Shown here: one piece after another, positions 11,050 to 33,400 of the stretch | How positions within the stretch are numbered: the stretch's first letter is position 1 | How the letters are laid out: each line of letters starts with the position of its first letter | NCBI GenBank assembly: GCA_027069135.1 | Contig: JALXFE010000440.1 | Coordinates: 1-44,033, forward strand | Length of the DNA stretch: 44,033 nucleotides | Source of the DNA: Thermoanaerobaculia bacterium | GTDB lineage: Bacteria; Acidobacteriota; Thermoanaerobaculia; Multivoradales; JAHZIX01 | Direction of reading: 5' to 3' | Notes under the pieces: model-generated | Told to the model about the DNA's origin: nothing | What the model saw: the letters and a program-made list of their open reading frames with translations, nothing else | Database searches by the model: none | Program-made: the position numbers and the translations under genes

Positions 11050-11089
11050 CTCGAAACAACCGGCAAGCTTCGCGAGGTGAGTGTTCGAA

Positions 11090-17000: not shown

Positions 17001-20000
17001 GGCGGGCCGCCGTAAATTCGTTGGGTATGGGAGGCACCAACGTCCATGTGGTGTTGGAGGAGGCGCCGCCTCGGGAGCCCACCGGCCCCTCCCGGCCCTG
17101 GCAGCTTCTTCCCGTCTCCGCTCATACGGAAAGTGCGTTGGAGGCGAATACCTCACGCCTCGCGGATTTTTTCAAAGAGCATCCGGAGATCTCCCTCGCC
17201 GACGCTGCCTTCACCTTGCAACAGGGGCGCCGGGGCCGGCGCTACCGGCGCATGGTGGTGGCCCGGGATCCCGCGGACGCGGTTCTCGCATTGGCCGGCG
17301 ACGATCCTCGACGTCGCTTGAGCGGCTTCTGCGAGGACCGGGAACGGCGGGTGATCTTTCTTTTTCCGGGGCTCGGAGGCCAGTACGCCGGTATGGCTCA
17401 GGGGCTCTACGAGGGGGAGGCGAGTTTTCGCGAGACCATCGATCATTGCGCCGAGTTGCTCCAGGGGAGTCTCGATCTGGACTTGCGGGAGATCCTGTTT
17501 CCCGCGGCCCCTTCCGGGGACGAAGAACCCTCCTCCGCCACGGCGGACCCCTCCGCACCAGTGGACTTTCGCGCCATGTTGCGGCGGGGTCCGGCGGAAG
17601 CCGACAAACCCCCGGCGGAAGAGGGGTTCCGCCGCACCCTCCACGCTCAGCCGGCTCTTTTCGTCATCGAATACGCCCTGGCCAAATTGTGGATGAATTG
17701 GGGAATCCAGCCGGACGGGATGGTCGGCTACAGCCTCGGGGAATACGTCGCCGCCTGTCTGTCGGGGGTCCTGAGCCTGGAGGACGCCTTGAAATGGGTG
17801 GTCCGGCGAGCCCGGCTCATCGAGGAGAGCCCCGGCGGTGCGATGGTCGCCGTGGCCCTGGCCCGGGAGGACCTGGAGCCCCTCCTCGGGGACGAGCTTT
17901 CGATCTCCGGGGTCAACGGTCCGGAGCAGACCGTGGTGGCAGGCCCCCGAGACGCCGTCGCCGCCCTCGAGGCGGAGCTCGAAGCTCAGGGGGTGAGCAG
18001 CCGTCGCTTGCAGACCTCCCACGCCTTTCATTCCAAGATGATGGAGCCCCTCTACGAGTCTATGGTGGCGTCAGCCTCGGGTTTGAAGCTCTCGGCGCCA
18101 CAGATCCCCTATCTATCCAACGTCACCGGCCATTGGCTGAGCGAGGAAGACGCGACGGATCCAACGTATTGGGGCCGCCACCTCTGTCAGCCGGTGCTCT
18201 TCGGCCGGGCCATCGAAGAGTTGATGAAAGAACCGGGGACCCTATTCCTGGAGATCGGTCCGGGGCAGACTTTGAGCAGCCTGGTGTTGCAGCATCCGGC
18301 GGCGGAGGCTGGACAACCCCACGTTCTGGCTTCCTTGCGGCATGCCTACGAGAATCAGCCCGATCTGGCCTTCGCCCTGGGAACCCTCGGAAAGTTCTGG
18401 GTGCTCGGGCGGTCCCTGGAGGGCTCAGCTTTCTGGGCCGAGGAAGACCGGCGCCGGGTACTGCTGCCGACCTACGCCTTCGACCACCGGCGCTATTGGA
18501 TAGAGACCTCCGACAGCACCCACTCCTCTATTCCTCGGGCCGCCGAGGGGGTCTACGGGCTGACCTGGAAGCCTGTGCCCCGAACCCTGTCGATACCCTC
18601 CGAGCTGCCGGAGAATCTCCGGCGATGGTGGGTCTTGGCGGAGCCCGGGGAACCGGGAGGGCTCGGCGAGACCCTCGTGAGTGAATGGCTCCTGCGGGGC
18701 GCGGGGGTGACCCGGCTGCAGCCCGCGGACGCCTACCGGGCTCTCTCGGGAGAGGTCTTCGAGGTCCGGCCGGACGCGACGGAAGACTTCTCGAAAGTCC
18801 TCGGTGAGGGTGGCGAGGAGCCCCAGGGGGTGATCGTTCTCTGGGGATGGGAAACGGAGGCTCCCGGGTCTCCCTCGAGGGCGGCTCAGGCGATCCATTC
18901 CCTTTCTTTGGTCCTGGGAGAGGATCGTGACACTCCCCTCCATTTCCTGTTCGTGACCCGCAATTCCTTCCAGATCAGTGGTGGAGACTCCCTGGATCTG
19001 GACCGGGTGCCGAGTCTGGCGGCCATGAAACGCCTCTCTCTGGACCGGCCGGGTTGGGCGTCTCAGGTCGTGGAGATCGAGCCGACGGATCCGGCGGCTG
19101 CCGGGGCCGTGCTTCTGGAAGCGACGGTGGGACGAGGGGGGATCGTGGCCTATCGCGGGCGGCGCCGTTGGCAAGGTGCCCTGGAGGCTCTCGACGACCC
19201 TCCTGCGGTCCCGCCGCCTTCGAAGGGAGGAGTCGTTCTCTTCGACGGCCTGGGAGATCGCTGCTTTCTCCTCACCCGATCCCTGGGGTTGCGTCGAGGG
19301 CATCCCTTGGTGAGCCTGGAGCCGGCGGGCTTTCCCGCCGCCGATGAGTGGGACGCCTGGTTGCGCAGCGACCTCGAATGCGGGCACTTGAGTCAGCGCA
19401 TCCTTCGAGCCCGGGAGCTCGAAGAGGCGGGAGTCAATCTTCTTGTCTTGAGCGTCGACCGCACGGTGCCGGAGGATCTCGAAACAGCTTTGCGGAAAGC
19501 AAAGCAGCACCTGGGGAAGGTGCGGGGCTTAGTCTACGCCACCGAGCCGCCGGTGAACGAGGACTCCGCGGCCCCGAGCCGGGAGCGTTGCGAAGCCGGT
19601 TTGCGAGGTCTCGAGGACTGCGTCCAAGGAGGTGTTCTGCCGGCTGCCGAAATGGAATGGGCTCTGCTGCTCGCCTCTCCCCGGGCGCCGGCGATCTCAG
19701 GCCTAGATCCCCTGGCCGCAGATCTTTTCCTGGCTTCCATGGCGGAACGCCCCGGCGTCGATGCGGAGATTCCCTGGCGGTGTGTGTGGTGGGATCCGCC
19801 GGTGGAGGAGTCGGTTCGGGATTCGGCTCTGGAGAAAGTTCTCGCCACGGCCTGGGTCCAGGTGGTGGTGGTGCCCCAAATTCCGGACGCCCCATGGCAT
19901 CCCTTTTTAGACCTCGTGATCTCCGAATCTTCCCCCGAGCCGGAAGGAGTCGCCTTCTACGACCGCCCGGAGTTACGGGTGGAATTCATCGCTCCTCGAG

Positions 20001-20335
20001 ACCCTGAGGAGGAAGCCGTCGCCGAGGTCTGGCGGGAATTGCTCGGCGTCGACCGGGTCGGCATCCACGACAACTTCCTGGAATTGGGGGGGGACTCGCT
20101 CCTGGCCTCCCGCCTGGTCACCCGCCTGCGCCAGATCTTTGCCGTCGAGCTACCGATCCGATTGCTCTTCGAAGCCTCCACGGTGGCGGAGCTGGCGTCT
20201 CGCATCCGGGAGATCCAGAGGGAGGAAGAAGACCGGGAGCTGGAAGCGATGCTGGCCCAGGTCAAGGAGCTGTCCGACGAGGATCTGGAGAAAGAAATCG
20301 AGCGCCGTGAAGCGGCCCTGGAAGTAGAGGACTAG
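11090..20335 (+). CDS. Type I PKS, two modules: KS-AT-KR-ACP-KS-AT-KR0-ACP
   Basis: First megasynthase of the operon (3081 residues). It performs two malonyl extensions. Module 1: KS 9-437 (C179 in TACSTSL; EAHGTAT and NVGH histidines present), AT 528-900 (S644 in GYSLGEY; HAFH 741-744, a malonyl-CoA signature), KR 933-1437 (TGGLGGLG 1188-1195, Y1348, N1352) and ACP with S1508. Module 2: KS 1566-1993 (C1737), AT 2085-2470 (S2215, HAFH), a KR-like domain 2486-2945 without nucleotide-binding or catalytic motifs, and ACP with S3003. No DH, ER, methyltransferase or loading module is visible, and the first KS has a normal cysteine, so the starter must arrive in trans. The acidic, helical tail 3043-3081 looks like a docking segment for the next protein. 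I chose ATG 11090 (GAGGTGA 9 nt upstream) over GTG 11081, which abuts that site. Confidence 0.93.
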   Translation: MGTTYDGSEIAIVGMACRFPGADTPEAFWRNLAEGVESLSVLSDEELAASGVRPEDFRQENFVRRASVLADIDRFDAGFFGYTGLDARLMDPQQRLFLECAWEAFEAAGYNPEAIEDPVGVFTGAKTNTYLFQLFSNQEVFKNLDRFQIALGNDLASMATRISYKFDLRGPSYAIHTACSTSLVAVHLACQSLLLDECRMALAGGASINIPQRTGYRFQKGGLLSPDGSCRTFDASAEGSNFGNGVGAVLLKRLEDATEDGDHIYALIRGSATNNDGAAKASYTAPGVDGQTAVLLEALAVAGVEARSISYVEAHGTATDLGDSIEMLALNNAYRAGTADRGFCAVGSVKTNVGHLETAAGVAGLIKTAMALEHRQLPASLHFREPNPKIDFAESPFFVNSELRDWTPAEGYPRRAGLSSFGIGSTNCHMILEEAPEPAVAPGSEGVQLLLLSARSETALDEMGDRLARHLGVEEPPPLADVAYTLQVGRKSFAYRRALVATGPKEARDLLKKGDAERVLEAFDEGAPRSVAFLFPGLGEHYPGMARGLYDGGGRFREVLDRCASLASDLGCDFLPALFPATEAVREAGRSPDLRAMLGRGASRPAGELDATRFAQPALFAVEYALAQQWQEWGIRPKALLGYSLGEYVAACVAGVLSLEDAIQLVVGRARLIEGLPAGGMIAVPVDEGRGKELGERFGLSVAGINGPHLCVLAGPIPAIEDLETELKKEETVCRRLPTTHAFHSEMMSSATEELIELARGLTLHPPEIPYISNVTGDWIKDEEATDPEYWARHLCQPVRFSQGGRLLASDRARVLLEVGPGQGLVSFLKQLPDLEPSATDVALTSLQNVFGRRPDSEYLLGSLGKLWLAGQSIDWRAFHQGDRRRRVPLPTYPFDRESHWISAGGDQDRGLSTASAQRAGQVTLAKRQDPSEWLYRPSWRPAPRGSKASEAGKDNPTGAERWLVFTTGTPEEDGLLAALRESRGEGVELVRVLPGAAFEERDPGTFTLRPGELEDYEALFRALGSPVPTRILHLFAAPVVPPVSFEGESFGELQDLGFYSLLFLARSLARTARGTAAQIDVVVSQVLRVDAEEDPRELRPAKATLLGPAKVIPQEFSHLSCRVLEVDRALLAEHPGELVEELASPLTDELVALRPGRRFLPAFDATPLPEPQETPDLLRPAGVYLITGGLGGLGLEVAAFLAQEVGARLVLTARRSLPPREDWDRWLKDHPAEDFAAKKIRRLRSLEEAGAQLLILSADATDREAMAEVVQLTRERFGSLDGVFHLAGVPGGGMMQLKSRAMAEEILAPKVMGARILVDLLQDEKTAFLLLFSSIASVLGEFGQADYCGANAFLDTLALCPRGQGGPAVMAVNWDIWQEVGLAVETEVPDHLKAWRQEMLDKAMTPAEGVSVLRRALEARLPRMVVSTQDLPGRIELGKSFTGERFLEELQKAQGSSSSPQGSKPFRRRPPRAEGGVAAQIAEIWRQLLGREVVGLDDNFFDLGGNSLMGLQLVTEMSRELEIEIEPITLFEAPTVRALARQLQSELGEAPAELSAPAGDVDPKAAIAIVSIAGRFPGANTVEAMWSNLCDGMESITFFSDEELLAAGVPAELVGDPKYVKAGALVDGVELFDAALFGYSPREAEVMDPQHRLFLEVASEAFERAGYDTSRYPGSIGVFAGSNLSTYLLRMHADEKVRRSVNMLQAILGNDKDSLTTTVSYKLDLRGPSVAVQTFCSTSLVAVHMAVRSLRQGECDMALAGGVRLVAPSVRGYLYEEGGIAPPDGHSRSFDAGANGSVLGNGVAAVLLKRLDEALRDGDQVLAVIKGSAINNDGSLKAGYTAPSIAGQAEAVAAAYQDAGVDPATVSYVEAHGSATELGDPIEIAALTKAFRRWTDEKGFCGIGSVKSNFGHLDRAAGATGLIKTVLALGHEELPPSINFSEPNPKIDFEASPFEVVTERRPWKSTEGPRRAAVNSLGMGGTNVHVVLEEAPPREPTGPSRPWQLLPVSAHTESALEANTSRLADFFKEHPEISLADAAFTLQQGRRGRRYRRMVVARDPADAVLALAGDDPRRRLSGFCEDRERRVIFLFPGLGGQYAGMAQGLYEGEASFRETIDHCAELLQGSLDLDLREILFPAAPSGDEEPSSATADPSAPVDFRAMLRRGPAEADKPPAEEGFRRTLHAQPALFVIEYALAKLWMNWGIQPDGMVGYSLGEYVAACLSGVLSLEDALKWVVRRARLIEESPGGAMVAVALAREDLEPLLGDELSISGVNGPEQTVVAGPRDAVAALEAELEAQGVSSRRLQTSHAFHSKMMEPLYESMVASASGLKLSAPQIPYLSNVTGHWLSEEDATDPTYWGRHLCQPVLFGRAIEELMKEPGTLFLEIGPGQTLSSLVLQHPAAEAGQPHVLASLRHAYENQPDLAFALGTLGKFWVLGRSLEGSAFWAEEDRRRVLLPTYAFDHRRYWIETSDSTHSSIPRAAEGVYGLTWKPVPRTLSIPSELPENLRRWWVLAEPGEPGGLGETLVSEWLLRGAGVTRLQPADAYRALSGEVFEVRPDATEDFSKVLGEGGEEPQGVIVLWGWETEAPGSPSRAAQAIHSLSLVLGEDRDTPLHFLFVTRNSFQISGGDSLDLDRVPSLAAMKRLSLDRPGWASQVVEIEPTDPAAAGAVLLEATVGRGGIVAYRGRRRWQGALEALDDPPAVPPPSKGGVVLFDGLGDRCFLLTRSLGLRRGHPLVSLEPAGFPAADEWDAWLRSDLECGHLSQRILRARELEEAGVNLLVLSVDRTVPEDLETALRKAKQHLGKVRGLVYATEPPVNEDSAAPSRERCEAGLRGLEDCVQGGVLPAAEMEWALLLASPRAPAISGLDPLAADLFLASMAERPGVDAEIPWRCVWWDPPVEESVRDSALEKVLATAWVQVVVVPQIPDAPWHPFLDLVISESSPEPEGVAFYDRPELRVEFIAPRDPEEEAVAEVWRELLGVDRVGIHDNFLELGGDSLLASRLVTRLRQIFAVELPIRLLFEASTVAELASRIREIQREEEDRELEAMLAQVKELSDEDLEKEIERREAALEVED

Positions 20336-20341
20336 AAGGTT

Positions 20342-23300
20342 ATGGACCGACCACCTGCCAAGAACCTCGAGAATCTATCCGACCGTCAACGCCGACTGCT
20401 GGAGCTATTGCTCAAGGAGAAGGGCTCCGCCGATGGCGGCAAGGAATCCAGGACGGCCATCACCGCCCGTTCCGGGTCCGGCCCGGCACCCCTTTCCTTC
20501 GCCCAGCAGAGGCTGTGGTTCATCGACCAGCTGCAACCGGGCACGGCGGCTTACAACATCCCTTCCGGCGTGCGTTTGAAGGGACCTCTCAACGCCGGGC
20601 TCTTCGGTCAGGCGTTGAAGCGCACGGTGGCCCGCCACGAGACCCTGCGGTCTACGTTCGAGCTTCGGGAAGGCCAGCCCGTGCAACCGGTCGCCGCACG
20701 GGCCACGGCGGTGTTGCCTCTGCTGGACCTTCGGGCTCTGCCGAGGGGAGACCGGGATACCGAGGCGCAGAAGGTCGTGGACGGCCTGGCCCGTCGCCCT
20801 ATGTCCCTGGCGAGCTCTCCACCGTGGCGGGCTCTCCTGGTGCGGGTCGAGGAGTCCGACCACGTCTTCATGACGGTGATGCATCACATCATTTCGGACA
20901 CCTGGACCACCGGGGTGTTCTTCCGGGAGATGGTGGGGCATTACAAGGCCTTGTTGGAGGGGGGGGAGGCGAAAGTTCCGGACCTGCCGGTGCAATATGG
21001 GGATTATTCCACCTGGCAGCGGAAGGCCCTGGAAGGTGGCTCCCTGAGCGGGCAGCTGGACTATTGGATCCGGCAATTCCAAGACGCGCCGCCCCTCTTG
21101 AGCCTGCCGACGGATCGGCCCCGGCCGGCGGTACAGACCTTTCGTGGGGGGCGCATCAATCTGGTACTCCCCAACACCTTGACGGATCGCCTCAAGGAGC
21201 TCAGCGCCCAACAGGAAGCGACCTTCTTCATGACCCTCATGGCGGGCTACCAGATCTTGCTCTATCGCTATACCCACGAGCCGGACCTCCTGGTGGGGAC
21301 CCCCATGGCCAATCGGGACCGGGTGGAGCTCGAGAACCTCATCGGTCTTTTCGTCAACACCCTGGTGCTGCGCACCGGGTTCCACGGCCGGCCGACCTTC
21401 CGTCAACTGTTGGATCAGGTGCGGGCGACGACCCTGGAAGGCCTCTCCAACCACGACGTACCCTTCGAACGCGTCGTGGAGGAGCTGACCCTGGAGCGGG
21501 ATACGAGCCGAAATCCCCTCTTTCAGGTTCTTTTCGCCTTCCAGAACGTCCCCATCCCCGAGTTGGTGGCCGAAGGCCTCACCTTGGAGCGCTACGAGTT
21601 CCGGGAGACCACCGCCCGCCTCGAGGTGGAGCTCGATCTGCAGGAAATGCCCTATGGCTTCGTGGGCTGGTTGGGCTACAACGCGGATCTCTTCGACGAG
21701 GCCACCGTCGAGCGTATGGCCCGGAACTTTCGGGTGCTCCTCGAGGGGATCGCCGAGAACCCGGATCGTGCGGTAGGTCAGCTGCCGCTGCTGAGCGAGA
21801 ACGAACGCCGGGAGGTGACCGCGGAATGGAATCAGACCACGGCGCCTTACGATAAGGAAGCGACCCTCCACGGTCTCTTTGAGGCGCAGGCTCGGCAAAG
21901 GCCGGAAGCCCTGGCCGTGGTTTGTGGTGCCCGGAACCTGACCTACGGTGAGCTCGAGGCCCGGGCCAACCGGCTGGCAAATCTGCTCCTCAAAGCGGGG
22001 GTCGGGCCCACCACGCCGGTGGGGATCTATCTGCGCCGGGGCCTGGATAGCGTAGTCAGCGTCCTGGCGGTGCTCAAGGCTGGAGGCAATTACATCCCGT
22101 TGGACCTGGCCTTCCCGGTGGCTCGCATGAAGACCATCGTGGAATCCGCCGGAGCCCGGCATCTCCTGACTCAAAGCAGCCTCTATGAGGACCTGGAGGA
22201 TCTGCGACCCTGCCTGGAGCATGTCGTGCTCCTGGATGCATCCTGGGAAGGAGAGTCTGCCGAAGGCCTGCGGATCTGGTCCCCGGAGGAGCTCGAGGCC
22301 CAGAGTCCCACCGCTCCCCCGATTCTCGTTCCTGCCGAGGCCTGGGCTTACACGATCTTCACCTCCGGCTCCACCGGAGTTCCCAAAGGGGTCATGGTCC
22401 AACACCGGCCGGTGAGCAATCTCATCGAGTGGGTGGCCCAGACTTTCGACTTCGGTCCCCGGGACCAGGTGCTCTTCATCACCTCTCTGAGCTTCGATCT
22501 TTCGATCTTCGACGTCTTCGGCCTGCTGGCCGTCGGCGGCTCGATCCGCGTGGCGACGGACGAGGAGAAACGCGACCCCGCAGCCCTGCTCTCGATCCTC
22601 GAGGCGGAGCCCATCACTTTCTGGGACTCGGCGCCCGCAGCGCTCCAGCAGCTGGCGCCCCTCTTCGAGGCGGGAGCGGTGGCCGACGCCGCTCTACGGC
22701 TGGCCTTCCTGAGTGGAGATTGGATTCCCGTGGGCCTGCCCGGCGAAGTGGTCAAGGCCTTCCCGGGATCCCGGGTGATCAGCCTCGGGGGAGCGACGGA
22801 AGCCACCGTCTGGTCCAACTTCTTTCCCGTTCGAGAGCTGCCGGAACATTGGGTCAGCATCCCTTACGGCCGCCCGATCCGGAACGCTCGCTACTACGTC
22901 CTGGGGGACGGCCTCGATCCGGAGCCGGTCAACGCTTCCGGGGATCTGTTCATCGCCGGGGAGTGTCTCTCCTTCGGCTACCTGGCCTCACCGGCCCTCA
23001 CCGCCTGGAAATTCGTGCCGGATCCCTTCTCCCAATCCGGAGGGCGCCTCTACCGCACGGGAGACCGGGCCCGGTTCTGGAAGGACGGAAACCTCGAGTT
23101 CCTCGGGCGACTGGACCATCAGGTCAAGATTCGTGGCTACCGCATCGAGCTGGGAGAGATCGCCGCCGCATTGACCGAGCATGAGGACCTGAGGGATGCG
23201 GTTGTGCTGGTGCGGGAGGACACCCCCGGGGATCGTCGGCTGGTGGCCTACGTCGTAGCCTCCGAGGGGGAGGCGCCGGGGTTCGCGGAGTTGCGGGCGT

Positions 23301-26300
23301 TTCTCCTGCGTCGCCTACCGGAATATATGGTCCCCACCCTCTTCTTGCCCATCGAGGGGATCCCCACCACGGCCAACGGCAAATTGGACCGGCAGGCCTT
23401 GCCGGCGCCGGAGCTGGAGCGTCCGGATCTGGGAGAGGCCTACGTCGACCCGGAAGGGGAGATGGAGGAGACCATCGCCGGGATCTGGAGGCGGGTGTTG
23501 CAGGTCGACCGGGTCGGCCGGCAAGATAATTTCTTTACCCTCGGCGGTCACTCCCTTCTCCTGACACAGATCCATGGCGAGTTGAAGGAGAAGCTCTCCG
23601 CGGACCTGTCGTTGGTAGATCTCTTCACCTACCCGACGGTGGGGTCGCTGGCGGAGTTTCTCACCACCAGCCACGATGCCCAGGAGGAAGTCGCGGCCAG
23701 TCTCACTCGGGCGGCGGCTCGCAAGGGGGCCTCGGCCTCCTCCCAGGAGGAAGGTGTAGCGATCATCGGCATGGCTCTGCGCTACCCCCGATCCCGGGAC
23801 GTGGACGAGTTCTGGCACAACCTGCGCAACGGCATCGAGTGCATCGACTTCTTTAGCGAGGAGGAGGTTCTGGCTGCCGGAGTGGACCCGGAGCTGGTCC
23901 AACATCCGGATTACGTGCGGGCGGAAGGCACGGTCTCCGACGTAGACAAATTCGATTGGCGCTTCTTCGGCTACGGCACGCCGGAGGAAGTGGAGCTCGT
24001 CGATCCTCAGCAACGGATTTTCATGGAGATCGCCTGGGAATGCTTCGAGAGGGCCGGCTACAACCCCTTCACGGCCCAGGAGAGCATCGGGGTCTTCGGT
24101 GGGGTGAATATCTCCAGCTACATGTTCAACACCCTCTACGACTACGATCCTTTCAAGGTCATGTCGAGCTTCCTGACCCGCATCGGTCTCCTGGTGGGAA
24201 ATCAGAATGACTACCTCTGCACCCGCCTGGCCTACCACTTCAACCTGCGGGGACCGGCCCTGACGGTGCAGACGGCGTGCTCGACGGCCACCGTGGCCAC
24301 ACACCTGGCGACTCAGAGCCTGCTGCGCAACGAATGCGATCTCTGCCTCGCCGGCGGGGTGCAGATTCGGGTGCCCCAGAACATGGGCTACCTCTACCAG
24401 GAGGGGGGCTTTCCCTCCCCGGACGGCCATTGCCGCTCTTTCGACGCCAAGGCCAAGGGCAATGTCCATGGCAACGGCGCCGGGATCTTGCTTCTCAAGC
24501 GTCTCTCCGAAGCCGTGCGGGACGGGGACCGGATCCACGCCGTGATTCGCGGCACGGCGGTGGCCAACGATGGCAGTGTCAAGGTGGGTTTCACCGCCCC
24601 GGGGGTGAGCGGTCAGGCGAGAGTGGCGGCGGAAGCCATGGCCGTGGCGGGCCTGAGCCCGGAGGATATCGGCTATCTCGAGGCCACCGGCACCGGCACC
24701 GAGTTGGGGGATCCCATCGAGGTGGAGGCCCTCACCAAGGCCTACCGTCTCAGCACCGACAAGGTGGGGTTCTGCCCCATCGGTTCCGTCAAGAGCAATA
24801 TCGGCCACACCGACGCCGCCAGCGGTGCCGCGGCGTTGATCAAGACCGCCCTGGCTCTCGAGAACGAGGAGATTCCTCCCAGTCTGCACTTCGAGGAACC
24901 GAACCCCCGCATCGATTTCGCCTCCAGCCCCTTCGAGGTCAACACCGAGCTCAAGGCCTGGCCTCGCGATGGCAAGACCCGCAGAGCGGCGGTCCATACC
25001 TACGCCGTGGGAGGCACCAACACCCACATCATCTTGGAGGAGGCGCCCCGGGTGCGGGCCTCGAGCCCCAGCCGTCCGTGGCAGCTCCTTCCCCTCTCGG
25101 CCCTCACCTCGACGGCCTTGCATCAGGCGACGGAGAACCTGGCGCAGTACCTGGAAGGCAGCGGCGAGGACCTGGCCGATGTCGCCTTCACCCTGCAGGT
25201 GGGGCGGCGGGATTTATCTCTACGCCGAGCCGTTCTGTGCACCGACCGGGGCGAAGCCGCGACCCTTCTTCGTTCCCTCGAACCCGAGCGGGTCGTGACC
25301 GGGACGGGAGTCCGGGAAGCGCCCACGGTGACGCTCTTTCTCTCCGAGGACGAAGGCCTGAAGGTCTCCGCTTTCGCCGAGATCTACCGTGCCGAGCCCC
25401 TCTTCCGTGACGCCGTGGACGAGATCTCCTCGGATCTGGAGGGCTTCCTCGGCGGATCTCTCAGCGAGAGCCTGCTGGCGAGTGAGGAGGCCTTGGCCGA
25501 GGAGCTCCGGGCACCGATCCACTTCGCGGTGCTCTACGCCCTGGGACGACTCTGGCGCAGCTGGGGGGTTGAGCCCCGGCGCATCGGTGGCAGCGGCGTC
25601 GGTGAGCTGGCGGCGGCCTGCCTCGCTGGCGTTCTGGCACCCTCGGCGGCGGCGCGGTTGGCGGCGGAGGAGGGGAAGATCTTGGCCGCTTCCCCTTTGA
25701 GTCCGTGCCTCGAGGTCCACGGTGATCTGTCGGCGTTGGAGGAGCTTCTTCCGGAAACCCTGCGCATCAGCTCCATCTCGGGGGAGGAGACCTGCACCCT
25801 CATGGGGCCGGAGCCGGAGGTCGAAGCTTTCCGAGACGTTCTCGAAGGGGAGGGATTCGCCGCCTTCATCTTGGGCAAGAAGCGATGTCCGCCCCTCCCC
25901 GGGACTCCGGAGCTGGGGACTTACCGTCTCATCCTCGAGGGATTGGTGAGCGCACCGGCGGAGATCGGTTGGTTGTCCTCGGTGCGGGGTGGGGCCATGA
26001 CCCCGGAGCAAGCTCAGGATCCGTCGTATTGGGAGACCAGGCTCTCGGCGACGGTTCGCACGGCGAAGGTCCTGCGCTCGGTGCTCTCGGACCCCCGTCA
26101 GATCCTTCTGGAGGTCGTTTCGAGCGGCCTCGGGGTCTCGGATCTGTCCGGTTCCGGCGGCGATCTCAGCCGGAGGGTCGCAAGCCTAGGGGATGGCTCG
26201 CGACCGCCCCAAGGCGCCTTGCTCCGAGCCCTGGGGGAGCTCTGGACCGCCGGGGTTGCGGTGGATTGGGCAGGCTTTTCGAGTCGCGAGGAGCGGTGTC

Positions 26301-28273
26301 GGATTCCCTTGCCTACCTATCCCTTCGAGAGGGAGCGGATCTGGGCGGAGCCGGAGATGGACCGCCAAGAGGCCTTCGGGCGACTGGGAGCGCGGGGGGA
26401 GCGAAAGCCCCTGGAGGATTGGTTCTACGCCCCCACCTGGAGCCGCCGGGAGAGCCTTTCGAAGACCCCCGCGGCGCCGGAAGGCGGTGCCGAGACCTGG
26501 TGGGTCTTCGCCGATGCCGGCTCGCCGCCGGCGGCGGCAGCCCACCTGTTGCAGGCCGGGGGTCGCTCCGTCGTGGTGATCGAGGCTGGCGAGGCCTACC
26601 AGGCCCCGGAGAACGGAAGATGCCGTCTGCGGCGGGGTCGGTTCGAGGACTATCAGCGGTTGTTGGAGACCCTGGGCACGGAGTCCCTGGGTTCGGGGAC
26701 CCTGGCAGGGGTCGTCTTCGGCTGGGCGCTACCCGCGGATTCCGGGGCATCGGAGAGTCTCGATACCCGAGGACTCTGGGATCTGGTGTTGTTGGCCCGG
26801 GCTCTCGGATCCCGGCCCCAGGGGCTCACCCTCGACATCGTCACCGCCGGTGGCCAGGAAGTCCTGGGGGATGAAGAGCTCGTCCCCGACCAGGGGGCGA
26901 TTTCGGGTCTCGCCAAGGTCATTCCTCAGGAGTATCCGCAGTTGCGCTGCCGCACCGTCGATCTATCTGTGGAGCTTCTGCGCCGCGGCGACGGCCCTCC
27001 GAAGCAGCGCGCCTTGGAAGCTCTGGTCCGGGAGTGGCTCGAGGAGCCTTCCAGCACCGCGGTGGCCGTGCGCGGGGCGCGCCGGTGGCAACAAGGCTTC
27101 GAGGCTTTGCCGGTGGCTGCCGCCGGAGCTCCGGCTCTACGCCGGGACGCGGTGGTGCTGCTCGCCGGTGGGGTCCACCCCTTCACCTTGATGGTGGGCG
27201 AGGCCCTGGCTTCCCAAGGGCCGGTGCGCCTGGCCTTCCTTGGCGAGTCCGGCCTGCCCCCTCGGGAGGATTGGCCGGCCTGGATCGAATCCGCTGCTGA
27301 GGACGAGACCTGCCGGAATCTGAGGAGCCTCCTGGCCCTCGAAGAGCAGGGAGCTTCGGTGCTGGTGCTGCCGGCGGAGCTTCACCGCCCGGACCAGGCC
27401 GCCGCGGCGGTGGATCAGGTCCTGGAGCTGTGGGGTGCGATTCACGGGGTCCTCTTCACCTCCGGCGAGCTGGCGCCGGAGTACGTGCGGGGGCTGGCGG
27501 AGCTCGACGGGGAGTTTCTGGCCTACCGCATGGGCCAGCGGTTGCGATCGCTCGAAGCCCTGGAGTCGGCCCTGGGGGATCGCCCTCTGGACTTCTTCTG
27601 GCTCTCGTCTACCGTTGCCGCGGTACTGGGCGGTCTGGCCGTCGGCGTCGAAGCGGCAGCGGATTCCTTCCTCGACACTCTGGCCCGCCAGCGTTGTCAG
27701 GAAGGCCGATCCTATTTGAGCATCGGCTGGGATGCCTTCCGGTTCGGCCATGAAGACGCCGAGACCTCAGCTCGATTGCCCCGGGCAGCCCTGACCCCGT
27801 CCGAAAGTGGGGAGGTCGTTCATCGGCTGCTGGCCGCCGGCCTGACCTCCCACGTGGTGATTTCCACCACCGACCTTCCCGCTCGGGTCCGGGGGGCTCT
27901 CGGAAGGGTCTCGGAGGAAGGGACGAGCAGTCTCCGGCAACGACCAGCCGACTTGGCCCAGGAGTATCTGGCGCCGCGCAACGAGGTGGAAGAAGAGGTA
28001 GCCCAGATCTGGTCCGAAGTGCTGGGGATAGATCCCATCGGCGTGGAAGACAACTACTTCGATCTAGGGGGAAACTCCCTTCTCGCCACCCAATTGGTGT
28101 CCCGCCTACGGGGTCGTTTCCAGGTGGAGCTGGCCCTCCAGGGCTTTTTCGAAGGAGCCACGGTCAGCAACGTCGCCCGCAGCATCGACATGGCCCGATG
28201 GGCCGGTGAACAACAGGCCGAGGCTCAGGAGCCTGTCCTGGTTGCCAGTGGTGAAGAAGTCGGCGAGATCTGA
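20342..28273 (+). CDS. Hybrid NRPS-PKS: C-A-PCP followed by a catalytically dead KS-AT-KR-ACP
   Basis: 2643 residues, starting 6 nt after the PKS. Residues 1-35 form a charged N-terminal docking helix. C domain 45-486: HHIISD intact (H181, H182, D186), but HHxxxDG has T for G. A domain 513-1030: TSGSTG at 674; specificity positions read D-L-F-D-F-S-L-V-W-K, nearest to cysteine-type codes such as DLYNLSLIWK. PCP: S1071. The PKS part looks inactive. KS 1138-1570 keeps C1313 and H1489, but EAHGTGT is EATGTGT (T1449 replaces His). AT 1660-2000 reads GGSGVGE with Gly at the catalytic Ser position (1752) and has no HAFH. KR 2023-2520 lacks the glycine-rich motif and the catalytic Tyr/Asn. ACP keeps S2579. 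The tail ends in EEVGEI, like a ligand for TubC_N docking domains. It probably adds one amino acid to the polyketide chain and passes it on. Confidence 0.92.
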   Translation: MDRPPAKNLENLSDRQRRLLELLLKEKGSADGGKESRTAITARSGSGPAPLSFAQQRLWFIDQLQPGTAAYNIPSGVRLKGPLNAGLFGQALKRTVARHETLRSTFELREGQPVQPVAARATAVLPLLDLRALPRGDRDTEAQKVVDGLARRPMSLASSPPWRALLVRVEESDHVFMTVMHHIISDTWTTGVFFREMVGHYKALLEGGEAKVPDLPVQYGDYSTWQRKALEGGSLSGQLDYWIRQFQDAPPLLSLPTDRPRPAVQTFRGGRINLVLPNTLTDRLKELSAQQEATFFMTLMAGYQILLYRYTHEPDLLVGTPMANRDRVELENLIGLFVNTLVLRTGFHGRPTFRQLLDQVRATTLEGLSNHDVPFERVVEELTLERDTSRNPLFQVLFAFQNVPIPELVAEGLTLERYEFRETTARLEVELDLQEMPYGFVGWLGYNADLFDEATVERMARNFRVLLEGIAENPDRAVGQLPLLSENERREVTAEWNQTTAPYDKEATLHGLFEAQARQRPEALAVVCGARNLTYGELEARANRLANLLLKAGVGPTTPVGIYLRRGLDSVVSVLAVLKAGGNYIPLDLAFPVARMKTIVESAGARHLLTQSSLYEDLEDLRPCLEHVVLLDASWEGESAEGLRIWSPEELEAQSPTAPPILVPAEAWAYTIFTSGSTGVPKGVMVQHRPVSNLIEWVAQTFDFGPRDQVLFITSLSFDLSIFDVFGLLAVGGSIRVATDEEKRDPAALLSILEAEPITFWDSAPAALQQLAPLFEAGAVADAALRLAFLSGDWIPVGLPGEVVKAFPGSRVISLGGATEATVWSNFFPVRELPEHWVSIPYGRPIRNARYYVLGDGLDPEPVNASGDLFIAGECLSFGYLASPALTAWKFVPDPFSQSGGRLYRTGDRARFWKDGNLEFLGRLDHQVKIRGYRIELGEIAAALTEHEDLRDAVVLVREDTPGDRRLVAYVVASEGEAPGFAELRAFLLRRLPEYMVPTLFLPIEGIPTTANGKLDRQALPAPELERPDLGEAYVDPEGEMEETIAGIWRRVLQVDRVGRQDNFFTLGGHSLLLTQIHGELKEKLSADLSLVDLFTYPTVGSLAEFLTTSHDAQEEVAASLTRAAARKGASASSQEEGVAIIGMALRYPRSRDVDEFWHNLRNGIECIDFFSEEEVLAAGVDPELVQHPDYVRAEGTVSDVDKFDWRFFGYGTPEEVELVDPQQRIFMEIAWECFERAGYNPFTAQESIGVFGGVNISSYMFNTLYDYDPFKVMSSFLTRIGLLVGNQNDYLCTRLAYHFNLRGPALTVQTACSTATVATHLATQSLLRNECDLCLAGGVQIRVPQNMGYLYQEGGFPSPDGHCRSFDAKAKGNVHGNGAGILLLKRLSEAVRDGDRIHAVIRGTAVANDGSVKVGFTAPGVSGQARVAAEAMAVAGLSPEDIGYLEATGTGTELGDPIEVEALTKAYRLSTDKVGFCPIGSVKSNIGHTDAASGAAALIKTALALENEEIPPSLHFEEPNPRIDFASSPFEVNTELKAWPRDGKTRRAAVHTYAVGGTNTHIILEEAPRVRASSPSRPWQLLPLSALTSTALHQATENLAQYLEGSGEDLADVAFTLQVGRRDLSLRRAVLCTDRGEAATLLRSLEPERVVTGTGVREAPTVTLFLSEDEGLKVSAFAEIYRAEPLFRDAVDEISSDLEGFLGGSLSESLLASEEALAEELRAPIHFAVLYALGRLWRSWGVEPRRIGGSGVGELAAACLAGVLAPSAAARLAAEEGKILAASPLSPCLEVHGDLSALEELLPETLRISSISGEETCTLMGPEPEVEAFRDVLEGEGFAAFILGKKRCPPLPGTPELGTYRLILEGLVSAPAEIGWLSSVRGGAMTPEQAQDPSYWETRLSATVRTAKVLRSVLSDPRQILLEVVSSGLGVSDLSGSGGDLSRRVASLGDGSRPPQGALLRALGELWTAGVAVDWAGFSSREERCRIPLPTYPFERERIWAEPEMDRQEAFGRLGARGERKPLEDWFYAPTWSRRESLSKTPAAPEGGAETWWVFADAGSPPAAAAHLLQAGGRSVVVIEAGEAYQAPENGRCRLRRGRFEDYQRLLETLGTESLGSGTLAGVVFGWALPADSGASESLDTRGLWDLVLLARALGSRPQGLTLDIVTAGGQEVLGDEELVPDQGAISGLAKVIPQEYPQLRCRTVDLSVELLRRGDGPPKQRALEALVREWLEEPSSTAVAVRGARRWQQGFEALPVAAAGAPALRRDAVVLLAGGVHPFTLMVGEALASQGPVRLAFLGESGLPPREDWPAWIESAAEDETCRNLRSLLALEEQGASVLVLPAELHRPDQAAAAVDQVLELWGAIHGVLFTSGELAPEYVRGLAELDGEFLAYRMGQRLRSLEALESALGDRPLDFFWLSSTVAAVLGGLAVGVEAAADSFLDTLARQRCQEGRSYLSIGWDAFRFGHEDAETSARLPRAALTPSESGEVVHRLLAAGLTSHVVISTTDLPARVRGALGRVSEEGTSSLRQRPADLAQEYLAPRNEVEEEVAQIWSEVLGIDPIGVEDNYFDLGGNSLLATQLVSRLRGRFQVELALQGFFEGATVSNVARSIDMARWAGEQQAEAQEPVLVASGEEVGEI

Positions 28274-28286
28274 GGGCTCGAGAGAT

Positions 28287-30410
28287 ATGGCGAGCAGAAC
28301 GTTACAAGTCGCCGAGTTGGTGAGCTTTGTGCGAGACCGGGCGGTGGAGCTCCAGGTGAAGGGGGAGTGCCTGACCTTTCGAGGAGCCATGGGAGACCTG
28401 CCGCCCCAGGTGCGCCGGGATCTGGTCGAGCGGAAAGGCGAGATCCTGCGTTTCCTCGCTGCGCCTCCGGACGGCGGAGCCTCGAATCCTCTGGCTCCGC
28501 TTCTGCAACCCTTGAGGATCGGATCTCTCGAAATCTCGAACCGACTGGTGCTCTCTCCCATGGAAGTGGACCTCGGCGAGGTGGACGGCAGGGTCTCTCC
28601 CCGGGTGGTGGATTATTACGCCGCCCGAGCCCGGGGCGGCGTCGGTCTGGTCATCGTCGAGGCGACCTGCGTCGACGCGCCGGTGGGACGCCTCGCCCCG
28701 ACGCAGCTGGTAGCCGATCATGATGGAGCGATTCCGGGTCTTCAGCGGCTGGCACGGGCTATTCAGCGGGGAGGGGCCCGGGCGGCGCTACAACTACAAC
28801 ATGCCGGGCGCAAGACCAGCGCTGCGCTCACCGGTGTGCGACCGGTAGCACCGTCGCCGGTACCCAATCATCTGGGAGAGACGCCCCGGGAGCTCGAGCC
28901 GGAGGAGATTCATGCTCTGGCCCGGCGGTTTGGAGATGCTGCCGCCCGTGCCCAGATGGCGGGCTTCGATGCGGTGGAGATTCACGCCGGTCACGGCTAC
29001 CTTCAGGCGCAATTCCTTTCCCCTACCTACAACCAGCGTTCCGACGAGTACGGCGGAAGCGCGAAAAACCGTGGACGGTTCCTGTTGGAAACCGTCCGGG
29101 AAGTGCGGCGCCGGGTGGGGCGAGGCTTTCCCGTCCTCTGTCGCCTGAGCGCCTTGGAGCTGGAGGTCGAAGGGGGATTGCGGCCCCTCGCCGGAGGGTT
29201 GTCTTTCGAGGAAACCCGACGCCTCGCTCCTCTTCTCGAAGCTGCCGGTGTGGCCGCCATCGACCTCTCCGCGACCCTGGTGGGACCGGCCTTGCTCCAT
29301 CCCATGGCCTGGCCGGAGGCTGCCTTGGCGGAATACGGTCGAGGGCTCAAGGAGACGGTGTCGATCCCCGTCAGCCTCACGTCTCGGATCCCCGTGGCCT
29401 GGGCGGCGGAGCAGATCGCTGCCGGCGCCTTGGACATGGTGCGCCTGGGCCGGCCCCTGTTGGCGGATCCGGAGCTACCCCGGAAGCTGAGATCGCCGGC
29501 GGTTGGAGAGATCCGGCCCTGCATCTACTGCTCCGAATGTCTGGACGGACCTCGCCGGGAGCCGGCTGCAGTATGCGCTGTCAACCCGCGTCTGGGCCGG
29601 GAAGGGGAGGCGGAGACCGACGCCATCGAGGCTCGCACGGTGGTGGTTGCCGGGGGCGGGCCGGCGGGGATGGAAGCCGCTTGCGCCGCCGCTCGCCGGG
29701 GGCATCGGGTCCACCTCTTCGAGCGGGGAGAGGAGCTTGGAGGACAGCTCCTTCTCTCTTCCAAGCCGGACTCCGCCGCCATCACCTACGGTGCCTTCCT
29801 GCGCTTTCTTCAGGCCGAGGTCGAACGCTCGGAGGTACGAGTTCACCTGGGAGAAGAGCTCGGACCGGAGGCTTTGGAGGCCTTGGGGGCTCAGGTCTTG
29901 GTCCTCGCCACGGGAGCCAAAGCCATCTCGACCCTCCCTGCCGGAGCCGATGGAGCGATCACCGCCATCGATGTCCTCAAAGGGGCACCGACGGGGGAGC
30001 GGGTGGCGGTCGTCGGCGGCGGATTGGTCGGTTGCGAGACGGCCCTGAAGCTGGCGGCCCGGGGCCACCAGGTGACCTTGATGCACCGCGGCGCGGGCCT
30101 CGCCGAGAGGGTTCCGGCGGAGGTGCGCACATGGCTTCTATGGGCCTTGGAACAAGAGGGCCTGGAGCTTCGCCGCCGATGCGAGGCCCGGCAGGAAAGC
30201 GCCGGTGAGCTCATCTTGCTCCAGGACGGACGAGAGGTCGCGGAGCGATTCGACACGGTGGTCCTGGCCGTGGGGGCTGAGCCGGATCTCGGGCCCTGGC
30301 AGGAGTTTTCCGGTGAGGGCCTGGAGATTGTGGTGTTGGGGGATTGCCGAAAGCCCCGGGACCTGCGCCACGCGGTTCATGACGGGTATTGGTCGGCACA
30401 GGATTTCTGA
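28287..30410 (+). CDS. TubC_N docking domain fused to Old-Yellow-Enzyme / dienoyl-CoA reductase-like flavoenzyme
   Basis: 707 residues, 13 nt after the hybrid gene. Residues 5-56 are a TubC_N-type NRPS docking domain (VAELVSFVRD... LQVKGECLTFRGAMGDLPPQVRRDLVERKGEILRFL). Residues ~68-400 are an FMN-binding TIM barrel of the Old Yellow Enzyme family, with QHAGRKTS, EIHAGHGYLQAQFLSP and DEYGGSAKNR motifs. C412, C415, C418 and C430 can hold a [4Fe-4S] cluster. From ~449 to the end are the two Rossmann segments (VAGGGPAGMEA and VVGGGLVGCE) of NAD(P)H:flavin reductases such as FadH. It should pass electrons from NAD(P)H via FAD, Fe-S and FMN to reduce an activated C=C or similar bond. The docking domain implies an assembly-line-bound substrate. 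Spacing CxxCxxC is one residue shorter than in FadH. ATG 28287 is used; an earlier in-frame start would overlap the upstream gene. Confidence 0.9.
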   Translation: MASRTLQVAELVSFVRDRAVELQVKGECLTFRGAMGDLPPQVRRDLVERKGEILRFLAAPPDGGASNPLAPLLQPLRIGSLEISNRLVLSPMEVDLGEVDGRVSPRVVDYYAARARGGVGLVIVEATCVDAPVGRLAPTQLVADHDGAIPGLQRLARAIQRGGARAALQLQHAGRKTSAALTGVRPVAPSPVPNHLGETPRELEPEEIHALARRFGDAAARAQMAGFDAVEIHAGHGYLQAQFLSPTYNQRSDEYGGSAKNRGRFLLETVREVRRRVGRGFPVLCRLSALELEVEGGLRPLAGGLSFEETRRLAPLLEAAGVAAIDLSATLVGPALLHPMAWPEAALAEYGRGLKETVSIPVSLTSRIPVAWAAEQIAAGALDMVRLGRPLLADPELPRKLRSPAVGEIRPCIYCSECLDGPRREPAAVCAVNPRLGREGEAETDAIEARTVVVAGGGPAGMEAACAAARRGHRVHLFERGEELGGQLLLSSKPDSAAITYGAFLRFLQAEVERSEVRVHLGEELGPEALEALGAQVLVLATGAKAISTLPAGADGAITAIDVLKGAPTGERVAVVGGGLVGCETALKLAARGHQVTLMHRGAGLAERVPAEVRTWLLWALEQEGLELRRRCEARQESAGELILLQDGREVAERFDTVVLAVGAEPDLGPWQEFSGEGLEIVVLGDCRKPRDLRHAVHDGYWSAQDF

Positions 30411-30476
30411 TGGTTGGTTTCTTCTCCCTGGGCCTCGACGGGCAGGGAGGCGGCTTCAGAGGAGGAGCCGGCAGAG

Positions 30477-33400
30477 ATGAACGTTTCCGTGATGCAGCAG
30501 CGGGCCGACGCCCGCGGTCTCTCGATCCCGGCTTTGGAGCGGCTCCTGGAACAGTGGGGTCTGGGGGGAGCTCGGTGGACCCTGGTGGGGGATGGGGTCA
30601 ACAAGACGCTGGAGGTGAAGCCCTCTTCCCCGGCCTTCGGTGGCGAGGATCGACTGGCGTTGCGCCTCTATTCGGGAGCCCAATACGACCCTCTGACGAT
30701 CCGATCCGAGCTCTCGTGGCTCGAATCCCTCAAGGGGGCGGGTCTGCGGGTGCCGGTGGGGCTCCCCGGACGGGATGGGACCTCCATCGTGGCGGCTCGG
30801 GAGGTCGTGGGCGAGGTCGGCAGCTCGGCGGTGCTCTTCAGCTGGTTGGAGGGGAGCCCCGTTCCGGAGCCCCTGTCTCCAGCTACCGCCCGAAGGCTGG
30901 GAGAGTTCATGGCGAGGCTCCACCGCCATTCGCAGACCTTTGCGGCGGGGCTCGACTTCAAACGACCCCGCTACGGCTTAGAACGCCTCCTAGGAGACGG
31001 AAAATCCGCCGGTGGGAAGGGTGCCGTGCCCTTCTGGACCGACGAGGTCAGGGCTTTGGCCCGAAGGGCCGGGGAGGTTCTTCGGCAGGAGTTGGGAAGA
31101 TTACGACAGGAGCCCGGCGAGGCCGCCTCCGGTGGTTGGGGTTTGATTCATGGAGACCTGCAGATCACCAACTTTCTCCTCCAGGAGGGAGAGCTCGGGG
31201 CCATAGATTTTGCCGATTTCGGTTGGGGCTTTTTCCTCTACGACGTGGCGGCATCCCTGCTGCCGGTGCGGCATAGCTCGGAGTTTCCAGCCCTGCGGGA
31301 CGCCTTCCTTCGAGGCTACACCGGGGTCCGGCCGCTGATGCCCTCCGCCAAGGATCTCTTGGAGCCGTTCTTCGCTGCCCGGGCCCTCTTCATTCTGCGC
31401 TGGACCGGGGAGTTCTGGCACCTGCCTTCGGTGCGCGAGACGGCGAAGACGACCTTGCCCTTTCTCAAAGGGGAGCTCCGGCGATTCCTCGGCGAAGACG
31501 CTCCCGGAGCCCCGGGAGGGGATGGGGTCGTCGAGCTCTTGAGCCGGCTCCGAGCTTCGGGGATCAAGCTTTGGGAAGAGGAAGGCCGGCTGCGCTTCAA
31601 AGCTCCTGAAGGGACGATGACTTCGCAGCTCCGGCAACGGCTGGCCGAGAAGAAGGGACAGCTTCTCCTCTTCCTCGTGCGGCACCGACAGGCCGGCCAG
31701 AAGACCCAGGAACCGGCGTTGGAGCCCCTCCCCCGGCGGAAGCATATGCCGCTGTCTTTCGCCCAGGAACGCCTGTGGATCCTTCATCGACTGGAGCCGG
31801 AGAGCCCGGCCTACAACATTTCCCAGGGGATTCGCCTCGAGGGGAGGTTGGTCCCCTCCGCGCTGCGCAAGACTCTGCAGGAGATCGTGCGACGCCACGA
31901 GATCCTGCGGACCTCCTTCGGCCTTTCGGATGCGGACGAACCGGCCCAGATCATCGCTCCTGCCTTGGAGCTCGAGATCCCCACCGTCGACTTTCGGGGC
32001 CTCGCCGCGGGGGCCGGTGCGGGGAAGGTAGAGGCCCTGACCTCCCGGCTGGCCAACCAACTGGCTTCAATGCCCTTCGACCTCAGCCGGATCCCTCTGC
32101 TGCGTTTCGTTCTCCTTCGCACCGGCGAAGCCCGGCACCTCCTGTTGCTCAGTCTGCACCACATCATTTCCGATGGCTGGTCCAGCGGCATCCTGATGCG
32201 GGAGATGGCGACCCTCTATGGAGATTTCCTGAACGGCGCAGAGCCGTCCTTGGGGGAGTTGGGGCTGCAATACGCGGATTTCAGCGGCTGGCAGCGGCGC
32301 TGGCTTCAAGGGGAGGTGCTAGAGGGGCAGCTGGAGTATTGGCGTCAACATCTGGCGGGGGCCCCGGGTCTCCTGGAGCTTCCCGCGGACCGCCCCCGGC
32401 CGCCGGTCCAGAGTTTTCGTGGTGGCCGCCGGGAGGTGGCGTTGGATGGGCAGCTTTCATCCCGCCTCAAGAGCCTGGGGCAGCAGAGCGGGGCGACTCT
32501 CTTCATGAGCCTGGTAGCGATCTATGGAGCCCTCCTCTTTCGCTACTCCGGCCAGCGGGATCTGCTCCTGGGCTATCCCATCGCCAACCGCAACCGGGTG
32601 GAGATCGAGCCCCTCATGGGGTTCTTCGTCAACACTCTGGTGCTGCGGGCTCGGTTCTCCCCGGGGCAGACCTACAGAGAGCTCCAGGAGCAGATGCGGC
32701 GGATCACCGTCGATGCCTACAACCATCAGGACCTGCCCTTCGAACGGCTGGTGGAAGAGCTCCACCCGGAGCGGGACGTGAGCCACACGCCCCTGTTCCA
32801 GGTCATGTTCACCCTCCAGAACGCCCCCCTGCCGAAGCTCGCGATGCCGGGGCTGGAGCTCGGGTTCGTCCGGCCGGAAAAGGCCGCCGTGCAGCTGGAC
32901 CTGGACATGACCCTGCGGGATGGGGAGGACGGTCTCCGGGGTGTGTTGGCCTACAGCCTGGATCTCTTCGACCCGACCACCGCCGAACGCTTGACAGAGC
33001 ATTTCGCGGCCCTGGCAGCAGCGGCGATGGCGCAGCCGGACCTTGCCCTGGAGCGCCTCTCCCTGCTGCCCCCGGCCCAGCAGCATCAATTGCTCCTGGA
33101 GTGGAACGACACCGCAACGAGCTACCCTCTCCAGCGTTCCTTCCCGGAGCTCTTCGGGCGGTCCGTCGAAGAATTCTCGGAGCGGATAGCGGTGCGCTGC
33201 GGGGACGAGGTCTGGACCTACGGCGAGCTCGGGGCCCGATGCGCCGGGCTGGCTGCTCGGTTCCGGGAGAAAGGCCTGATCCCCGGCGGGGTGGTCGCCG
33301 TGTTGGCCCACCGAGGGCCGGATCTCCTGGCCGCCATAGTGGCCGTCCTCCAGGCCGGGGGTGCCTACCTGCCCCTCGATCCCCTCCACCCATCGCGGCG

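Follow-up and report, generated by a model that had tools for sequence, protein, structure and literature searches.

A probably non-elongating KS0-type module with dead AT and KR domains in a cis-AT NRPS-PKS line of Thermoanaerobaculia

Introduction

The described systems closest to the locus reported here come from cis-AT and trans-AT assembly lines. In CalA3, from the cis-AT calcimycin line, the AT nucleophile Ser has become Gly, the AT His and Arg are lost and the KR is dead, while the KS has been turned to amidation and the other domains are thought to be structural; an H332A substitution abolishes amidation (PMC10006239). In the trans-AT mupirocin line, the KS0 of MmpE moves the chain to the module's own ACP, where it is epoxidised by an oxidoreductase (PMC7619045). 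In the trans-AT KS0 domains Art14KS4, OzmH-KS8 and BaeKS3, the first His of Cys-His-His is substituted, and transthiolation is proposed for them (PMC8302727). The pairing of SLiM tails with TubC docking domains is established in other systems (PMC13324335).

Literature searches for a fully dead cis-AT module yielded none among the papers listed, and CalA3 itself surfaced through structure matches. Here we describe a module of an NRPS-PKS hybrid protein that has lost catalytic residues in its KS, AT and KR, and compare it with these systems.

Results

Gene organization of the locus

The window, meaning the whole stretch of DNA analysed (44,033 nucleotides), is an entire contig (C440) of a 7.17-Mb assembly in 626 contigs (genome G000); all genome comparisons below are based on draft genomes. 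An operon-like run of plus-strand genes starts at 11081 and consists of P0002, P0001, P0003, P0004 and then P0005, an NRPS gene running off the contig. Domain limits are those of Pfam, and residue calls rest on alignment to active modules of the same cluster and of relatives. The features are as follows.

11081..20335, + strand: P0002, PKS protein KS-AT-KR-ACP-KS-AT-KR(dead)-ACP, the upstream donor (Pfam, motif table, KR2 alignment)
20342..28273, + strand: P0001, hybrid C-A-PCP-KS0-AT0-KR0-ACP (Pfam)
20486..21814, + strand: P0001 C domain, HHxxxD present by eye (Pfam)
21875..23401, + strand: P0001 A domain (Pfam)
23462..23668, + strand: P0001 PCP (Pfam)
23750..25051, + strand: P0001 KS0 (Pfam, alignment, tree)
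25304..26131, + strand: P0001 AT0 (Pfam, alignment, predicted structure)
26492..27931, + strand: P0001 KR0, structural and catalytic halves (Pfam, alignment, predicted structure)
27983..28189, + strand: P0001 ACP, with Ser2579 at 28076-28078 (Pfam, alignment)
28190..28270, + strand: P0001 acidic C-terminal tail ending in EEVGEI, a putative SLiM for TubC/beta-hairpin docking domains
28287..30410, + strand: P0003, oxidoreductase of the OYE/2,4-dienoyl-CoA-reductase type carrying an N-terminal TubC_N docking domain (about 28308-28457) (Pfam, structure search)
30414..34985, + strand: P0004, APH-type kinase domain, TubC_N (about 31527-31676) and C-A-PCP, the next NRPS protein; start codon provisional
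35093..44033, + strand: P0005, TubC-C-A-PCP-C-A-PCP-C-A..., off the contig end; start provisional

By the motif table and the KR2 alignment, catalytic residues are intact in both KS and both AT domains of P0002, and its second KR is dead. This second KR (18581-19960) lacks the glycine motif and the Tyr, and its homologues in loci L097 and L099 are dead too; L097 (G002:C166, 859-5610) also encodes an additional KS-AT-KR-ACP protein ahead of the G002 homologue of P0002. The P0001 frame is open throughout 20336-28270, in agreement with the intact frame described in the sequence-only reading. Its A-domain substrate code, tentatively read by hand as DLFDFSLVW, resembles the Cys code. In P0004, the APH-type phosphotransferase domain (30648-31334) precedes TubC-C-A-PCP, and the same fusion occurs in genomes G002, G003 and G044.

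Upstream of the cluster, 8711-10570 encodes by eye a fusion of trypsin-type protease-like and DNA/RNA non-specific endonuclease-like (DRGH motif) parts, and 4739-8185 (- strand) resembles by eye an error-prone DNA polymerase III alpha of the DnaE2/ImuC type. An ORF at 733-1503 contains a repeated peptide (GSGRMMIRPYDPRTIL...) at about 1050-1300, suggesting a short DNA tandem repeat.

Residue losses in the KS, AT and KR domains

The sequence-only reading had described the KS, AT and KR centres of the P0001 module as decayed, and alignment to active homologues bears this out, with no functional first KS His, AT Ser or KR Tyr at the expected positions. In KS0, Cys1313 (24278-24280, in TACSTAT) is intact and Thr1449 (24686-24688) replaces the first His, giving EATGTGT for EAHGTGT, both as previously claimed. 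His1489 (NIGH) is also intact, as is the active-site lysine region in the invariant columns of alignment A1, so that the further statement that only the ACP serine survives was too strong. In AT0, GSGVGEL aligns with GYSLGEY, so Gly1752 (25595-25597) occupies the nucleophile site; Lys (EEGKILA) replaces the Arg of GRARLIE, and the HAFH region reads RCPPLP. The Pfam score of AT0 is 34.3 bits (cut-off 32.7), versus 307.2 for the two P0002 ATs together. In KR0, the glycine motif is lost (AGGVHPFT versus TGGLGGLG), Tyr and Asn are replaced by E2437 and D2441, and the tetrad region keeps its Ser and has lost its Lys. Ser2579 of the ACP (GGNS) is intact.

Across 66 distinct KS domains, which were gathered by similarity to the query and so represent near relatives rather than a random draw, the first His is present in 62/62 other KSs and in 0/4 KS0s (Thr, Thr, Thr and Ser). 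Counted by locus, it is kept at 27 of 30, the exceptions being the KS0s of G000, G002 and G003. All four KS0 members combine the nucleophilic Cys, in TACSTA[TL], with a replaced first His of HGTGT. As judged by these residues, the domain fits the KS0 class, here within a cis-AT setting; loss of one His alone is no proof that KS0 cannot condense. A KS with the converse pattern, Cys replaced by Ser (SASSTSL) and His kept, was seen in a relative (L067, G015:C1245).

Related modules with the same losses

A search for related clusters that share the losses recovered modules in G002, G003 and G303. Among 147 relatives, the best AT-KR match (G002:C31, 41% identity) has EATGTAT and GWGSGEL, no HAFH and a dead KR. 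In 72 genomes of the order, KSs close to KS0 were found in G002 (79%) and G003 (80%) only, and the next closest KS is 58% identical with its His present; the class-level search (148 genomes) added no further KS0. Both genomes belong to the same family (f1) as G000. G003 is fragmented, with C-A-PCP-KS0 on C464 and the KR0 end, ACP, OYE and P0004 homologue on C521; its AT was not seen, and its genotype matches P0001 for the parts that its contigs hold. Neither a close KS0 nor a TubC-OYE occurs in G001, which belongs to the window's genus.

The fourth member comes from a phylum sample of 396 genomes. In G303, of another class, the KS is 67% identical with EASGTGT, the KR is dead and the ACP is kept, and the AT is deleted except for the linker, with no PF00698 match. 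With regard to the AT, which trans-AT modules lack, P0001 has an AT remnant and G303 has none. Among 149 relatives of G303, no other genome has a KS0 module. The KS0 gene of G303 is preceded by an aminotransferase-like ORF (L111, 8067-9368, - strand) that looks by eye like a diaminobutyrate aminotransferase. The four KS0s group together as a single clade (SH-aLRT 100) in a quick tree built without a trans-AT reference set. A related-locus search found nothing in viral contigs, and one locus (40% over 43 residues) in genome contigs.

Constraint and predicted fold of the individual domains

Between the window and G002, no compared domain is better conserved than KS0 (79%, versus 75% and 76% for the active KS1 and KS2); the ACP stands at 71% and the PCP at 70%. 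AT0 shows 38% identity versus 61% and 54% for the active ATs, and the structural and catalytic halves of KR0 show 36% and 47% versus 55% for the active KR1 and 35% for the dead KR2 of P0002. The dN/dS values (NG86) between G002 and G003 are 0.11 for KS0, 0.06 for the ACP, 0.22 for KR0 and 0.30 for the OYE; these are safer than the G000-G002 values (e.g. AT0 0.74), whose high divergence makes them suitable for ranking only. KS0 and ACP are thus as strictly maintained as working domains, with some constraint on KR0 and little on AT0. Taken together with the AT deletion in G303, the high identity of KS0 and ACP and the low identity of AT0 indicate that selection keeps KS0 and ACP and that the AT is dispensable; G303 further suggests that an AT is not structurally indispensable in such modules. 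The earlier proposal of selection on the module is supported, but equal selection across its roughly 4.4 kb is not, since AT0 has drifted to 38% and been deleted in one member.

Modelling, which the sequence-only reading had called for, gave confident folds for KS0-AT0 (pLDDT 90, pTM 0.91; nearest Foldseek matches ClbI and other KS-AT structures) and for KR0-ACP (pLDDT 84, pTM 0.82; nearest matches PKS KRs). The predicted AT0 and KR0 folds are thus retained, and fold carries no information on activity. Absence from the Foldseek and VIA lists excludes no family.

A docking domain fused to a flavoenzyme

The in-frame ATG of P0003 at 28287 lies 13 nt past the P0001 stop. The nearest solved structures of P0003 are 2,4-dienoyl-CoA reductase (1ps9) and other OYEs, and it matches NCBIfam models such as BaiCD far below their cut-offs. 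Its N-terminus scores 34.1 bits for TubC_N (PF18563, cut-off 26), and each of the three f1 genomes has an OYE whose TubC_N scores above this threshold (34.1, 41.9 and 46.1 bits), where TubC-OYE is the adjacent downstream gene of the module (G000, G002 and G003). OYE matches at E<=1e-60 occur in 18 of 147 genomes, and in 15 of these 18 the match begins at query residue 38 or later, TubC being residues 8-57. As a single inherited unit, the f1 clusters of the three genomes amount to about one event of co-occurrence of module and OYE; a Fisher test of this co-occurrence was set aside because three genomes of one family provide no independent evidence.

A module serving the OYE alone is made less likely by G303, where TubC-C directly follows the KS0 protein. 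An OYE without TubC lies there on another contig, beyond a PKS end and with a transposase-like ORF between, and in the OYE tree it does not group specifically with the TubC-OYEs. This arrangement indicates that the OYE is not a constant or obligatory partner of the module, though linked to it in f1. The homologous cluster of G044, a genome from another family, (P0002-like, C-A-PCP-C-A-PCP, APH-TubC-C-A) has neither a KS0 module nor an OYE between the P0002-like and P0004-like genes.

The P0001 tail EEVGEI resembles the EEGEL, EEGDL and EEGEF tails found in these clusters ahead of proteins with a TubC, and similar tails end the modules of G002, G003 and G303. Relative to the described TubC/beta-hairpin docking domains (PMC13324335), the difference is that the fusion partner of one TubC is here a flavoenzyme and not a C/Cy domain. 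A literature search found no paper joining 'old yellow enzyme' with a docking domain in a nonribosomal peptide or polyketide synthase context.

Comparison with described systems

Like CalA3 (PMC10006239), P0001 contains a complete cis-AT module in which the AT nucleophile, His and Arg are lost and the KR is dead, and in which the KS probably does not elongate. CalA3, however, keeps Cys-His-His, has a dead DH and no ACP, and releases its chain, whereas P0001 has Thr1449 in place of the first His, no DH, an ACP with Ser2579 and NRPS genes downstream. The lost His, the retained ACP and the downstream genes indicate that this is not a CalA3-type release module. CalA3 nevertheless provides a cis-AT precedent for a repurposed KS accompanied by dead AT and KR domains, and the earlier remark on how unusual such a cassette would be in a cis-AT hybrid, though fair, needs this qualification.

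MmpE would be a functional analogue, in which KS0 transfers the chain to its own ACP and an oxidoreductase acts on it there on line, as we propose for P0001; it differs in being trans-AT, in having its oxidoreductase fused in cis and in making an epoxide, and no AT0 or KR0 is mentioned for it (PMC7619045). With Art14KS4, OzmH-KS8 and BaeKS3, the P0001 KS0 shares the replaced first His, but those belong to trans-AT lines (PMC8302727), and the P0001 domain lies behind a PCP and is accompanied by the remnant of a cis AT.

Discussion

Proposed role of the module and alternatives

We think it probable that the PKS module of P0001, set in a cis-AT NRPS-PKS line, is of the non-elongating KS0 type and that the chain on the PCP is passed to the module's own ACP without elongation. 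By transthioesterification, KS0 would load Cys1313 with the N-acylated aminoacyl chain carried by the preceding PCP and hand it to the ACP, with no malonyl unit loaded or added, while AT0 and KR0 would be at most structural. The ACP and its acidic tail would then present the chain to TubC-docked partners. In f1, the P0003 flavoenzyme may come first as an optional step, its TubC using the same dock ahead of that of P0004 and its OYE domain perhaps oxidising or reducing the ACP-bound chain beside a carbonyl; the TubC-C domain of P0004 would subsequently take the chain for the next condensation, and peptide synthesis would continue. Since the relatives keep the transfer and carrier parts, the module probably hands the growing molecule on. 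The sequence-only reading had suggested a transfer bridge or a platform for tailoring, and one or both roles gain support from the losses shared by G002, G003 and G303, the dN/dS values and the adjacent docking-domain flavoenzyme.

It is also possible, though we consider it unlikely, that KS0 has been repurposed and carries out new chemistry on the chain received from the PCP before passing it to the ACP, whether amidation, hydrolysis or the intramolecular aldol or cyclisation of an N-(beta-ketoacyl)aminoacyl thioester. The KS0 clade has residues that are absent or rare in other KSs, namely His1552 (0/61 others), Tyr1554 (0/61) and Ala1555 (2/61), which share one loop, and Gln1341 (0/62); F1357, H1376 and H1299 are likewise absent or rare among the 61-62 others, and the usual Asn is lost at 1408. 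These residues may, however, merely reshape the pocket. Because the window, G002 and G044 all have a dead KR in the upstream module, the NRPS part probably receives a beta-ketone, and the substrate of KS0 should be a beta-ketoacyl-aminoacyl thioester. SalC, a KS-fold bicyclase reported to cyclise an N-(beta-ketoacyl)aminoacyl-type substrate, stands at rank 9 of the structure list. The KS of CalA3 forms C-N bonds within a module of dead AT, DH and KR, but it requires H332, the same kind of residue as is lost here (PMC10006239); furthermore, the retained ACP and downstream NRPS genes argue that the chain goes on. A specific form of this reading, to which we give a low probability, is an on-line cyclase: the KS, with Thr1449 and the new His1552 and Tyr1554, would close a ring by an aldol/Knoevenagel step as in SalC with the thioester kept, the lactam would pass to the ACP, and the TubC-docked flavoenzyme would reduce or oxidise the new enone before peptide synthesis resumes.

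We judge it less probable still that the module continues to elongate, with a trans-acting AT loading the ACP and KS0 condensing despite Thr1449. The KS Cys, second His and ACP are intact, the G303 module has no AT, and dead ATs with trans loading are known, as in colibactin modules. However, the His present in 62/62 other KSs is missing in all four KS0s, and published KS0 domains show substitutions of this kind (PMC8302727). Least probable, and very unlikely in our view, is direct passage of the chain from the PCP to the next C domain, with KS0-AT0-KR0 as a skipped relic serving as a long linker. The low identity (38%) of AT0, its deletion in G303 and the position of the docking tail at the protein end would suit this, but KS0 is the best conserved domain relative to G002, with a dN/dS of 0.11, and the ACP serine is present in all four modules.

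Transfer to the module's own ACP without elongation therefore remains our preferred explanation, with two qualifications. The clade-specific His1552 and Tyr1554 hint at more than plain transfer, and the purifying selection on KR0 (dN/dS 0.22) exceeds what a mere relic needs and counts against this explanation.

Implications

The loci form a natural series, in which the AT is dead (G000, G002), the AT is deleted (G303), or module and flavoenzyme are both absent (G044). This series allows one to ask what a PKS module still requires once elongation is abandoned, and it also bears on the possible loan of a docking domain to a tailoring enzyme. Should the TubC-OYE indeed dock to the P0001 ACP, docking tags could serve to bring redox enzymes to selected carriers of engineered lines. 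For the product of this cluster, predictions based on counting modules would add a false C2 unit at the P0001 module.
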